Shown in pieces: positions 1 through 7,760 of a stretch of 64,000 nt of DNA. Position numbers and translations under genes: made by a program. Where the stretch lies: positions 1 through 64,000 of the forward strand of contig NZ_JAUSUW010000002.1 of assembly GCF_030814435.1 (NCBI RefSeq). Direction: 5' to 3'. A model generated the notes under the pieces. It did no database searches. It saw nothing but the letters and a program-made list of their open reading frames with translations, and had not been told where the DNA came from. Each line of letters starts with the position of its first letter. Position 1 is the first letter of the stretch. The DNA comes from Peteryoungia aggregata LMG 23059. Its GTDB lineage: Bacteria > Pseudomonadota > Alphaproteobacteria > Rhizobiales > Rhizobiaceae.

Positions 1-710
<710 letters not shown>

Positions 711-3330: not shown

Positions 3331-5034
3331 TCAGATATCGGCATCGTCATACGGCTGCTGCTTGGGATCATACTGCGTACCCTTCGACCGACGGCGGTCT
3401 TCCGCCTGGGCGGCCAGGATCTCCTTCACCTTGGCGACCAGGTCCGTCTCGGCCACGACTTCCTGCGCCACCCGGGCCTCGCGCCATTCGGCATTGTCGG
3501 TGATCTCGCCGGAGAGACGCTTGCCCTCGATCAGGTCCTTGATCTGGACGACGCCTTGCGCGCGCTCGTCGCCGCCCTGGATGATGGCGATGGGAGCATT
3601 GCGGCGGTCGGCATATTTCAGCTGGTTGCCGAACTTCTTCCAGTTGCCCTGGTACATTTCGGCGCGAATGCCAGCGTTACGCAGGTCCTGCGTGAACTTC
3701 TGGTAGCGGCCCATGCTCTCGACATCGCCGTCCATGACGGTGACGAGGACCGGACCAAGCACGTCGTCCTGGCCGAGCTTGCCGAGGTTCTTCAGCGCCG
3801 TCATCAGGCGCGAGACGCCGATGGAGAAGCCCGTGGCCGGGACCGGCTGGCCCATGAAGCGCGAGACGAGACCATCGTAGCGACCACCGCCGCCAACCGA
3901 ACCGAAGACGACCTTTTCACCCTTTTCGTTGGTGACGTCGAAGGTGAGTTCGGCTTCGAAGACGGGACCGGTGTAGTATTCGAGGCCGCGGACACACGAC
4001 GGATCGATCTTGATGCGATCGGAACCGTAACCCGCACTCCTGACCATCCTGTGAATTTGAAAAACGCGGATGAGCGACAACAAGTCGACCCTTGTTTCAT
4101 CGAGCGGACTTGCCAACAGAACGATAATCGGAAGCAGCCAATTCAGCTCGCCCGAACGAACTTCCTCTTCCGAGAAGACTGGTTCACCATCCTCTTTATA
4201 CGCCGCATATAATTCCAGCTGGGTCTGTGAAAAGGTTACGACTTCTGGCCCAAAACTACATACCAGAGGTTCGTCCGGGGTACTCTGAATACTCGGTTCC
4301 ACGAAGAGGCGGTATAGTTCTGCGGCACGTTCGGCAGGCAAGCCGACACCTGCGGTAACGTCACCGCTCTCGTCCTTACGTCCAGTGGTAAGCAGTCGGA
4401 AAACACCTTCCCAACCAAATTTGTCGAACTTGTCCAAGCTTCTGAGCACACCCAACTTCTGAGTGTCAGTCACCCCGCGAGCCGCTAGAATTGAGTCTAG
4501 AAGCGCACGGCTGTTAACCCGGATCACATAATCGCCGCGCTTGATGCCCAGCGCTTCCAGCGTATCGGCCATCATCATGCACATTTCGGCATCGGCCTGG
4601 ACGCCCGGTGCGCCGACAGTGTCGGCATCGAACTGCATAAACTGGCGGAAGCGGCCCGGGCCCGGCTTCTCGTTGCGGAAGACGTAGCCTGCGCGATAGG
4701 TGCGGAACGGCAGCTGGATTTCCTGGAAATTCTCCGCGACATGACGGGCCATCGGCGCCGTCAGGTCATAGCGCAGCGACATCCACTGCTCGTCATCGTC
4801 CTGCAGCGAGAAGACGCCTTCGTTCGGGCGGTCCGAGTCCGGCAGGAACTTGCCGAGTGCATCGGTGTATTCGAAGAGCGGGGTTTCGATCGGGTCGAAG
4901 CCGTAGCGCTCATAGACCTCGCGGATGGTCTCCATCATCTGGTTGGCAGCCCTGATGTCAGCAGCCTCGCGATCGACGAAGCCGCGCGGCAGGCGGGCCT
5001 TCAGCTTACTTGGCTTCTTGTTCTTATCGCTCAT
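3331..5034 (-). CDS. hisS: Histidyl-tRNA synthetase with an atypical internal segment
   Basis: Charges tRNA-His; class II synthetase. I start at [19 protein letters not shown], because the open frame above it reaches into the antitoxin promoter. Motif 2 is at about residues 119-133 ([14 protein letters not shown]), the histidine-binding [10 protein letters not shown] at 351-360, and [12 protein letters not shown] follows; all look functional. At 567 residues it is longer than the roughly 500 I recall for rhizobial HisS. The excess lies around residues 185-335, the insertion-domain region, which resembles my memory of relatives poorly. Bases 4081-4320 are 50% GC by count, against 68% at 3841-3900 and 63% at 4561-4620. 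I infer a recombined or inserted segment in an otherwise native, probably functional gene. A short basic tail ends the protein. Confidence 0.95.
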
Positions 5035-5188: not shown

Positions 5189-5422
5189 ATGAACAAGCGC
5201 GTCACGCTCGAGATGCCGGAGGAAATGCACCAGTTGGTGGTCAAGTATGCCGCAGAAGCCGGGGCAGAGCCGGATGCCTATTTGCTCGAAATGATAGAAG
5301 AGCAGTTGGAAGACGCGTATTTCCTGCGGCGTGCCCAGGAGGTTCTGGAAGCGCGGGAACGTGGTGAGAGCCGCACCTATACTTGGGCGGAAATGGAGCG
5401 CGAGCTTGGCGTGGACGATTGA
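5189..5422 (+). CDS. RelB-like antitoxin of a disrupted toxin-antitoxin pair
   Basis: A 77-residue protein starting [16 protein letters not shown]: an amphipathic N-terminus like ribbon-helix-helix DNA-binding antitoxins, then an acidic helical toxin-binding tail ([21 protein letters not shown]). The ATG follows AGAGG at a good distance. It is divergent from hisS. The toxin start lies inside its 3' end (overlap of 17 bases), the usual layout for RelBE/ParDE operons. The partner is split by an insertion sequence, so this antitoxin should now have no functional neighbour. Family is inferred from size, organisation and the recognisable partner; RelB and ParD cannot be separated by eye. Confidence 0.8.
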
Positions 5423-5473: not shown

Positions 5474-6301
5474 CTAGTTTGATTTAGCCCTGATGAACTG
5501 CCGAGGGGAAGCCATCTTGAGCGCGGAATGCGGATGGATTTCGTTGTAGTCTTCGATCCATCCGTCGATGAGCCTGAGCGCTGTTTCGGCGTCCGGTAGT
5601 GCTGAGATGCGGATATAATCCCGCTTCAGGGTTTTGACGAAGGCTTCCGACATGCCGTTCGATTGCGGACTGGCCACCGGCGTGAAGCAAGGCGTCAGAT
5701 TGAGCGCCTGGGCAAATAACCTTGTGTCCCTCGCGGTGTAAGCCGAGCCATTGTCCGAGAGATGCTCGATTGCGTGCGGGGCTCGGGTCGCTGCGAAGCG
5801 CTTCTCGACCGCCTCCAGCATCATGTCGCGAACGTCAGAGCCGGAGATACCCGCGTTGGCGATCGCCGTCCAGGCGATGATCTCCCGGTCGAAGGCGTCG
5901 ATGATGAAGGCGAGACGAATGACCTCGCCGTTCCAGCATGTGAACTCCAGACCGTCCGAGCACCAGCGCAGGTTCGAGCGCATGACCATCACCTTGCCGT
6001 CGTGGAGGCGGCCCTTGCGAACGGCCGTATGCTTCTCCAGCAGCATGGCGTGGTTGCCCATGATGCGATGAACCCGTTTGGCGTTGACGACAGGCTCATC
6101 GGCGGCTCGCCTCTCGCGATTGAGGAGCGCGGCGATCCGCCGATAGCCATAGGTGGGCCTTTGATCCACCAGCCTGCGGATGATGGGCAGCAACTCTGTA
6201 TCCTCGGCCTTCCGATAGGGCCCGCGCGGCTTCGATCCGCCTCTCAGCCGCTCGACGAGGTTGGAACGGGAGACGCCCAGCGTGTCGGCGACGGTCTTCA
6301 T
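5474..6301 (-). CDS. IS2-group transposase OrfB (DDE integrase core)
   Basis: The 275-residue catalytic half of the IS3-family transposase. An HTH_21-like N-terminus (LPIIRRLVDQRPTYGYRRI, NAKRVHRIM) precedes an rve integrase core. DDE residues are visible in RWCSDGLEF, LSDNGSAYTA and SPQSNGMSEAFVKTLKRDY, and it ends HPHSALKMASPRQFI. It probably works mainly as an OrfAB fusion made by frameshifting in the overlap with orfA. No internal stop or frameshift is seen. Confidence 0.93.
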   Translation of the reverse strand: MKTVADTLGVSRSNLVERLRGGSKPRGPYRKAEDTELLPIIRRLVDQRPTYGYRRIAALLNRERRAADEPVVNAKRVHRIMGNHAMLLEKHTAVRKGRLHDGKVMVMRSNLRWCSDGLEFTCWNGEVIRLAFIIDAFDREIIAWTAIANAGISGSDVRDMMLEAVEKRFAATRAPHAIEHLSDNGSAYTARDTRLFAQALNLTPCFTPVASPQSNGMSEAFVKTLKRDYIRISALPDAETALRLIDGWIEDYNEIHPHSALKMASPRQFIRAKSN

Positions 6302-6687
6302 CGGGAACCGTCCTTCGGCAACAAGATCGGTCGCGATATCCGTTTTTTTGAGTCTGCTTTGGACAGGGCTTCCCGGAGGATTTCGACTTCCATCGTCTTG
6401 CGACCGAGCATGCGCTCCAGCTCGCGGACACGATCCTCCAGCTTCTTCACTTCCGAATTGCCGACAACCGGCTCGTCAGAATCCACGGCTGCAGCACCTC
6501 CCTCACTCAAGAGCCTGCGCCACCGGTAAAGCAGATTGGGCGCAACGCCATGGCGGCGAGCGGTGGACGATACCGTCTCGCCTGGTTCGAAACTCTGCTC
6601 AATGATTGTCAGCTTCTGCTCGGTTGTCCACCGTCTACGGCGGACATCACCCGTCAGCAATTCAACGTGTCGATACTCGTTAGACAT
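6298..6687 (-). CDS. IS2-group transposase OrfA (helix-turn-helix)
   Basis: The 129-residue DNA-binding half. RRRRWTTEQKLTIIEQSF and TARRHGVAPNLLYRWRR form the HTH_Tnp_1-type domain, followed by a leucine-rich coiled coil (EVKKLEDRVRELERMLGRK). Near the end the codons pass through CAAAAAAAC, a suitable slippery run for entering the orfB frame, which overlaps by four bases. The gene reads toward hisS, against the split toxin. Confidence 0.92.
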   Translation of the reverse strand: MSNEYRHVELLTGDVRRRRWTTEQKLTIIEQSFEPGETVSSTARRHGVAPNLLYRWRRLLSEGGAAAVDSDEPVVGNSEVKKLEDRVRELERMLGRKTMEVEILREALSKADSKKRISRPILLPKDGSR

Positions 6688-6772: not shown

Positions 6773-6777
6773 CCATC
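6773..6777. repeat. Right target-site duplication (CCATC)
   Basis: Second copy of the target duplication, adjoining the right IS end and in phase with the toxin 3' piece. Confidence 0.85.
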
Positions 6778-7013
6778 AAACAGCTCAAGAAGCTGGGCGA
6801 CACCGAGTCGCAACGCATCAGGAACTATCTCCACACTCGCATCAAACCTCTCGATAACCCGCGCCAAAAAGGCGCCGCCTTGCAGGGGCCAGAGTTCAAC
6901 CGTCTCTGGCGTTACCGGGTTGGCGACTACCGCGTCATCTGCGATATCCAGGACGGAAAACTCATCGTGCTGGTGGTCGAGATCGGCCATCGCAGCTCGT
7001 CTATCGGTAACAT

Positions 7014-7760
7014 ATGATCCTCGAAGCCCTGAATTATGCCGCGACCTGGCCGCTGACCTCCGCTGGCCATCGTCCTTTCATTCGTTCCTCGGTCAGCCTT
7101 TGGGCGCGCGCCAATCGCTGTCGCGCCGCCTGGGCCGAGCATGAGCGGCGGACGAAGGCGGCGATCCTCGCTACGGCTGAAGGATGCCGGCAGCGGCGGA
7201 CGGTGGTGGTGCTGGGATCGGGGCTGCTGCGCGATGTGCCGGTCATGGAGCTGTCGCGGCTCTTTGACACGGTGGTGCTGGTCGATCTCGTGCATCTCGC
7301 CAGCGTGCGCGGCTGGCTGACGATGAAAGGGCTGAAGAATGTGCGGCTGATCGAGCGGGATCTTTCCGGGCTCGATGCGCTGCTGGCCGGGCAGCCTTTG
7401 GAACCGCTCGCCTTCCTCCGGCAGGTGCCCTATCTCGATCTCGTCGTCTCGGCCAATCTGCTGTCGCAGATCGGCATCGGCGCCAGCCGCCGTCTCAACG
7501 GTCATGCGGAAGAAGAGACGTTTGTTCGTCAGGTGATCGCCGCGCATGCCGAGGGGCTGGCGCAGATTGCGGCCGAGACCTGCCTCGTCACCGATGTTGG
7601 CTATACGGTGATGGACCGCACCGGCGGACGGCACGAGACAGTCGACCTGATGCACGGCGTCGATCCGGGTTCTGCGCGGGAAAGCTGGGACTGGCCGGTC
7701 GTTCCCTTCGGCGAGGAGAGCCGCGACTACCAGGTCGTGCATCACGTGATTGCGCATTGA
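7014..7760 (+). CDS. Conserved hypothetical, possible SAM-methyltransferase fold
   Basis: A 248-residue soluble protein I recognise only as conserved in rhizobia. TVVVLGSGLLRDVPVMEL at about residues 63-80, followed by VVLVDLVHL, resembles the glycine loop and acidic strand of a class I SAM-dependent methyltransferase. A later segment, YLDLVVSANLLSQIG, resembles the post-motif strand. Catalytic residues and substrate cannot be named. Its ATG overlaps the stop of the split toxin (ATGA), so before the IS insertion it may have been translated behind the toxin. The insertion could have changed its expression. Confidence 0.6.
   Translation: MILEALNYAATWPLTSAGHRPFIRSSVSLWARANRCRAAWAEHERRTKAAILATAEGCRQRRTVVVLGSGLLRDVPVMELSRLFDTVVLVDLVHLASVRGWLTMKGLKNVRLIERDLSGLDALLAGQPLEPLAFLRQVPYLDLVVSANLLSQIGIGASRRLNGHAEEETFVRQVIAAHAEGLAQIAAETCLVTDVGYTVMDRTGGRHETVDLMHGVDPGSARESWDWPVVPFGEESRDYQVVHHVIAH

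Follow-up and report, generated by a model that had tools for sequence, protein, structure and literature searches.

The DNA analyzed here (the window) is a 64,000-nucleotide stretch of Peteryoungia aggregata LMG 23059 (NZ_JAUSUW010000002.1, positions 1 to 64,000), in which hisS, encoding histidyl-tRNA synthetase (HisRS; the protein product is called HisS below), lies on the reverse strand beside a pair of toxin-antitoxin genes. The features considered are as follows.

3331..5034, reverse strand: hisS, histidyl-tRNA synthetase, 567 amino acids with an ATG start at 5034, assigned by translation and TIGR00442
4513..5034, reverse strand: N-terminal flank with the catalytic core and motifs 1 and 2; identity of 0.76 to 1.00 to 122 relatives in 15-residue segments
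3991..4512, reverse strand: apparently exchangeable insertion-domain module, about residues 175 to 348, delimited by the identity drop, DNA profiles, change-points, and saturated synonymous sites
4339..4512, reverse strand: entry part of the module, residues 175 to 232; alignable family-wide, apparently swapped in some exchanges and retained in others
4027..4338, reverse strand: hypervariable core, residues 233 to 336; mean identity of 0.01 to 0.15 over residues 241 to 330
4222..4269, reverse strand: predicted beta-hairpin, residues 256 to 271 (AlphaFold2); the core of the native-type model is all helix
3334..3990, reverse strand: C-terminal flank with motif 3 and the anticodon-binding domain; identity of 0.73 to 1.00 over residues 331 to 540, ending in a rare tail
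5189..5422 and 6775..7014, both forward strand: neighbors of hisS identified by Pfam, an antitoxin-like gene (DUF6290) and a ParE-like toxin gene

HisS passed the TIGR00442 equivalog cut-off (368.3 bits versus 286.75), and the genome-wide matches to PF13393 are hisS and its paralogue hisZ only; hisS is present in a single copy. When its AlphaFold2 model was searched with Foldseek, the top matches were HisRS, with the HisRS fold over the whole protein, and the best comparison with a solved HisRS gave a Z score of 34.4 and an rmsd of 4.7 over 414 aligned residues. PF03129 matched the C-terminal flank at residues 431 to 509. Because HisS is the sole copy and its catalytic flanks are conserved, it probably charges tRNA-His in the cell, and both flanks are, to judge by their identity to relatives, native to the lineage. 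Beyond residue 540, segment identity in the alignment with relatives fell to 0.60 and then to 0.01, and the C-terminal tail (residues 556 to 567; 3334-3378, reverse strand) is missing from 96% of the aligned relatives. The antitoxin-like and toxin genes are separated by two open reading frames on the reverse strand (5474-6687), which we take to be an IS3-type element, and an open reading frame downstream of hisG (18-710, forward strand) is presumably an IS110-type transposase gene.

Within hisS, an earlier note made from the sequence had claimed a dip to 50% GC at 4081-4320, and we measured 50.4%, with 63-64% further out on one side (3601-3960) and 61-63% on the other (4441-4920). The mean GC of the window is 62.2% (sd 3.7), and 240-base windows as low as the dip make up 0.4%. 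Residues 175 to 348 have 52.9% GC versus 62.6% in the HisS flanks, and the GC3 values are 54.6% and 82.4%, respectively. The claim that the protein is about 60 residues longer than the rhizobial norm was likewise borne out, at 567 amino acids versus the commonest 504-508 among 142 relatives; residues 179 to 331 comprise 153 amino acids versus 106 in the common form and account for 47 of the roughly 60 extra residues, most of the remainder being the C-terminal tail. The block does lie, as had been proposed, in the insertion domain between motif 2 and RGLEYYTG; the range assigned to it, 4025-4510, was correct in location, and its true extent is somewhat wider (about 3991-4512), and variability peaks in a core at 4027-4338. 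Near-invariant N175, K177, and G181 are absent from the entry part of this HisS. In the AlphaFold2 model, 10-residue mean pLDDT values in the block range from 65 to 93; entry helices common to this and the native-type model are followed by strands (256-261 and 264-271) and helices here and by helices only in the native type. A Pfam search of the block alone gave no match.

To place the block among its relatives, HisS sequences were collected from same-genus genomes, 80 loci of named genomes, and further stretches, with one genome sampled per species; the first alignment held 123 distinct proteins of 142, and a later set held 194 distinct HisS, 175 in the family and 19 outside. Before counting, we removed identical sequences, L151, which lacks a start, and L020, L127, and L139, whose hisS is interrupted or short. 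The genus contributed 59 usable genes, 51 under genus identifiers and 8 identical to named loci. A hisS match was found in 62 of the 63 same-genus genomes searched, in one piece in 11 (own genome included) and broken or partial in the other 51, usually as separate N and C parts with an unaligned gap in between. Two matches (G033 contig 335 and G058 contig 4) are split into overlapping C-terminal pieces near residues 471-500, a pattern that resembles frameshifts or sequencing errors. Identity to the P. aggregata protein in 15-residue segments was 0.73-1.00 over residues 1-180 and 331-540, 0.28-0.73 over residues 181-240, and 0.01-0.15 over residues 241-330.

At a 60% identity cut, the 175 distinct family HisS sequences fell into 65 block types, 45 of them singletons, the native type being common (78 of 175). 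The 51 same-genus sequences gave 26 types, 21 of them single, at this cut and 13 types at a 50% cut. Two Sinorhizobium meliloti records, the sole same-species pair, share one type and are 99.6% identical. Among HisS pairs with flank identity of 0.94-0.98, block identity ranged from 0.23 to 0.99. Native blocks match their flanks in GC (mean difference of -0.4 points), whereas the 97 non-native blocks lie on average 8.4 points below theirs, 91 of them by more than 3 points; non-native blocks are also longer (median of 152 versus 127 amino acids). The low-GC block is therefore not the peculiarity of one genome that it had been thought to be, and it belongs to what appears from these comparisons to be a family-wide module: the insertion domain of Rhizobiaceae HisS behaves as a hypervariable, exchangeable cassette. 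At the neighboring toxin-antitoxin genes, relatives of the antitoxin adjoin hisS in 63 of 145 loci scanned (not all independent), at 29-100% identity, and the pair stands beside 17 of 33 non-native versus 18 of 62 native hisS genes in 95 loci (p = 0.044, uncorrected for kinship). A link of the P. aggregata block type to the pair was rejected, as no match was found at the other scanned loci with that type.

The nearest relative, L002, has the same protein as L031 (Rhizobium sp. RU33A). Compared to L002, flank dS is 0.22-0.78, and synonymous differences over residues 179-330 are saturated (pS of about 1.0). Block edges are sharp in the DNA identity profiles. Six sisters that group on the flank tree with a support of 96 (L003, L006, L009, L137, L138, and L142) share 93-95% flank DNA identity, with core identity of 0.22-0.30, and carry six types. 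Similarly, Shinella L353 and L354 are 95.8% identical in DNA on both sides of the block, have no blastn match inside it, and differ in type. Overall, core identity was below 0.5 in 198 of the 319 pairs whose flanks were at least 0.92 identical in DNA; change-points in pairs with such flanks fell near residues 175-187 or 229-238 on the left and at 318-350 (median of 345) on the right. Similarity in the 30 codons adjoining the block matched that elsewhere in the flanks (0.932 and 0.930), and no donor flank tracts were seen next to the block. Nor did any rare-type pair have a core clearly closer than its flanks, apart from L148/L149 (0.92 versus 0.88), as recent transfer would leave. Altogether, the block is mosaic: repeatedly across the family, one precisely bounded domain of an essential gene present in a single copy has a history unlike that of its flanks. 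The import or replacement within hisS that the earlier note had suspected thus agrees with the differing histories of block and flanks, except that it is not peculiar to this genome. The note had also stated beforehand what would refute it, namely, close relatives with the same block and GC dip and trees that agree; the same-genus relatives L002 and L003 do carry the P. aggregata type with a GC dip, but flank and block disagree, so this refutation fails.

The 174-residue block of this type is found in seven sequences, L001, L002, L003, L034 (Martelella mediterranea), L148, L149, and L150, the last three from two other genera, and blocks of this type occur in three genera at about 45-57% identity. 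When mapped on a 94-row flank tree, the type requires seven changes to account for its seven rows, and four of these changes are forced by starred branches. The flank data reject a single clade for the seven carriers (AU p = 2.7e-60), so block sharing and flank sharing reflect separate histories. The entry-part tree is poorly resolved, with 4 of 90 inner branches starred, and splits the seven from native rows by one branch (support of 87). Beyond the genus, 3 of the 297 genomes of the family search (own genome included) had a block match over the full length; the other 384 genomes, covered by a class search, gave no full-length match and partial matches in 54. The own genome has only one block match at an E value of 0.001, so no silent cassette for this type was seen there.

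Neither phages nor plasmids gained support as candidate carriers. Full HisS matched 20 phage records, each below 60% identity and short of 80% query coverage, as well as two IMG/VR contigs at 50-64% identity; the best full-length matches on plasmids, at 67-71%, lie on large Shinella and Sinorhizobium replicons that are labelled plasmids. Neither the block nor its core half had a relative in viral contigs or in plasmids.

As controls, two other proteins were analyzed in the same manner. In ThrS from 29 same-genus genomes, no 20-residue window fell below 0.77 mean identity except at the ends, while HisS drops to 0.02; in HisZ from 28 loci, no window fell below 0.54, while HisS in 27 of those loci drops to 0.27. 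No such block is apparent in the ThrS or HisZ alignments, although HisZ nonetheless has one low window, at 0.54. A control family from outside the order gave matches in 79 of 80 genomes, and 30 were compared (two other control families held 4 and 3 genomes); among the 25 pairs whose flanks were at least 0.90 identical, two, both involving L293, had block identity below 0.70. L293 and L292 share 95% flank identity and 45% block identity; one swap in this family is likely from this contrast, which suggests that exchange is not confined to Rhizobiaceae. This reading is tempered by the fact that block identity is also below 0.5 for most pairs in that family with flank identity below 0.80. Outside the class (17 of 23 loci fetched), the block of the 17 HisS sequences is always 92 residues long and slightly less conserved than the flanks. 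Within the native type, 118 close pairs gave a core dN/dS of 0.14 versus 0.03-0.05 in the flanks, which shows purifying selection on the native core and argues against mere junk; between types, pN in the core is 0.57 in close pairs. The native-type core dN/dS lies below 1 and so gives no direct indication of positive selection at individual sites.

The insertion domain of HisRS is taken to touch the acceptor arm, which speaks for co-adaptation, i.e., for a block that changes along with its tRNA. We examined tRNA-His in 61 of the 63 same-genus genomes. As predicted by ARAGORN, it is 77 nucleotides long including CCA, its first base is a G that pairs with U72, position 73 is A, and no G-1 is encoded; G1, U72, and A73 agree with the Caulobacter identity set as given in the accessible part of the source (PMC9976931). 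The 77-nucleotide tRNA is identical in 41 genomes (30 letter by letter and 11 from full-identity rows), and in the other 20 of the 61 it differs at 3-7 positions, in the T arm only; besides the common haplotype, five others recur. All 61 genomes have the same sequence outside the T arm, acceptor stem, discriminator, and anticodon arm included, and 24 block types are represented among the 39 of the 41 identical-tRNA genomes whose hisS was typed. Across block types tRNA-His is near-invariant, and outside its T arm it is the same whatever the type; altered tRNA recognition, which the earlier note had raised, is therefore unlikely to be what drives the changes in the block. Co-adaptation, already contradicted by these counts, would require type-specific tRNA modification, and we consider it very improbable.

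The explanation that we favor, with about even confidence, is that HisS carries a modular, type-switching cassette, exchanged by recombination through the flanks, kept in many types by selection, and likely selected by a binder. Recombination through the near-invariant coding sequence on either side would swap the insertion domain, with replacements drawn from a very large set of diverged versions lying beyond this sample. The hisS of P. aggregata would hold one of these imports, with a block of the 174-residue alpha/beta type; every type would remain functional, and diversifying selection would keep many of them circulating. The selecting agent would most likely be a macromolecule that binds the domain, e.g., a phage or competitor inhibitor, from which rare or new types escape. 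We infer homologous recombination as the route, and the existence of donors with it; diversifying selection by something that binds the domain is inferred more weakly. The low GC of the non-native blocks points to import from AT-richer sources, the flanks without donor tracts suggest older alleles, and the lack of a clear recent donor pair suggests a large pool beyond the sample. Against this explanation, no antagonist, resistance phenotype, or donor is known, and the missing donor tracts beside the block fit old alleles as well as recent import. Also weighing against it are the commonness of the native type, the single type of the S. meliloti pair in a sample of one genome per species, the native core dN/dS below 1, and the lack of a rare-type pair caught in recent transfer. 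A sharper version, in which phage or competitor proteins dock on HisRS and bacteria escape by trading whole insertion domains, is tentative; such an arms-race surface would be a cytosolic housekeeping counterpart of variable receptor loops. It is possible, as the earlier note had raised, that the block affects inhibitor sensitivity.

Other explanations share parts of the evidence. If the domain simply tolerates replacement and recombinants persist by drift with no selective agent, then the core being least conserved even within the native type and the lack of a known agent would be accounted for; this is somewhat unlikely, as the native type is under purifying selection, as 45 single types among 175 sequences and precise edges without donor tracts are hard to obtain by drift in a single-copy essential gene, and as the family outside the order has just one exceptional sequence among its close pairs. 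A long-lived balanced polymorphism, with old alleles held in species pools, linkage eroded to the block edges, and few recent imports, would fit the saturated synonymous sites between blocks of the same type, the flanks without donor tracts or a recent donor pair, and the spread of the P. aggregata type over three genera at low identity. We regard it as unlikely, since long residence should ameliorate base composition and nearly all non-native blocks remain well below their flanks in GC. Types might instead suit different partners or lifestyles, making the block a partner-binding or regulatory domain and no antagonist the cause; the variable part is indeed predicted to be well folded, with a fold unlike that of the native type, but six types in six sister species and the absence of a link between the P. 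aggregata type and the toxin-antitoxin pair make this quite improbable. Fast evolution in place or assembly chimeras would explain why donors were not found, and are hardly credible given that synonymous sites in the block are saturated at ordinary flank dS, that conserved residues are kept, and that the pattern recurs in many separate assemblies.

Genes for aminoacyl-tRNA synthetases are textbook examples of conservation, and the enzymes serve as antibiotic targets. If the type-switching cassette that we favor is real, dozens of apparently interchangeable HisRS domains with an unchanged tRNA would point to some agent that exerts selection on translation in bacteria living in soil or in association with plants, and the natural series of types would show what the HisRS insertion domain tolerates; whole hisS appears unsafe as a phylogenetic marker in Rhizobiaceae. 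By title and abstract, our literature search found no paper on a hypervariable or exchanged HisRS insertion domain, which is weak evidence of novelty, as most subscription papers lay outside the search.

Among known systems, streptococcal penicillin-binding proteins are mosaic essential genes into which divergent segments have been imported under drug selection. HisS resembles them in that divergent segments enter an essential gene, presumably by homologous recombination; unlike theirs, its edges follow one domain, its types vary in both length and predicted fold, and drug selection is not known to act on it. In the HsdS subunit of type I restriction systems, which is dispensable, swapped target-recognition domains set DNA specificity. 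HisS likewise has a conserved frame, a hypervariable, swapped module of many rare types, and conflicting block and frame histories, a likeness of behavior and not of homology; unlike HsdS, whose module sets DNA specificity, its frame is an essential enzyme. The closest case by protein is an alphaproteobacterial clade whose tRNA-His has A73 and no encoded G-1, ascribed in the accessible text of the sources to one ancient joint change of HisRS and tRNA-His (PMC9976931, PMC3937112). As far as that text goes, Rhizobiaceae HisS shares with this clade the protein family, the overall fold, and a tRNA-His with A73 and U72; in place of one ancient joint change, the insertion domain alone appears to have been exchanged repeatedly, with the tRNA fixed.
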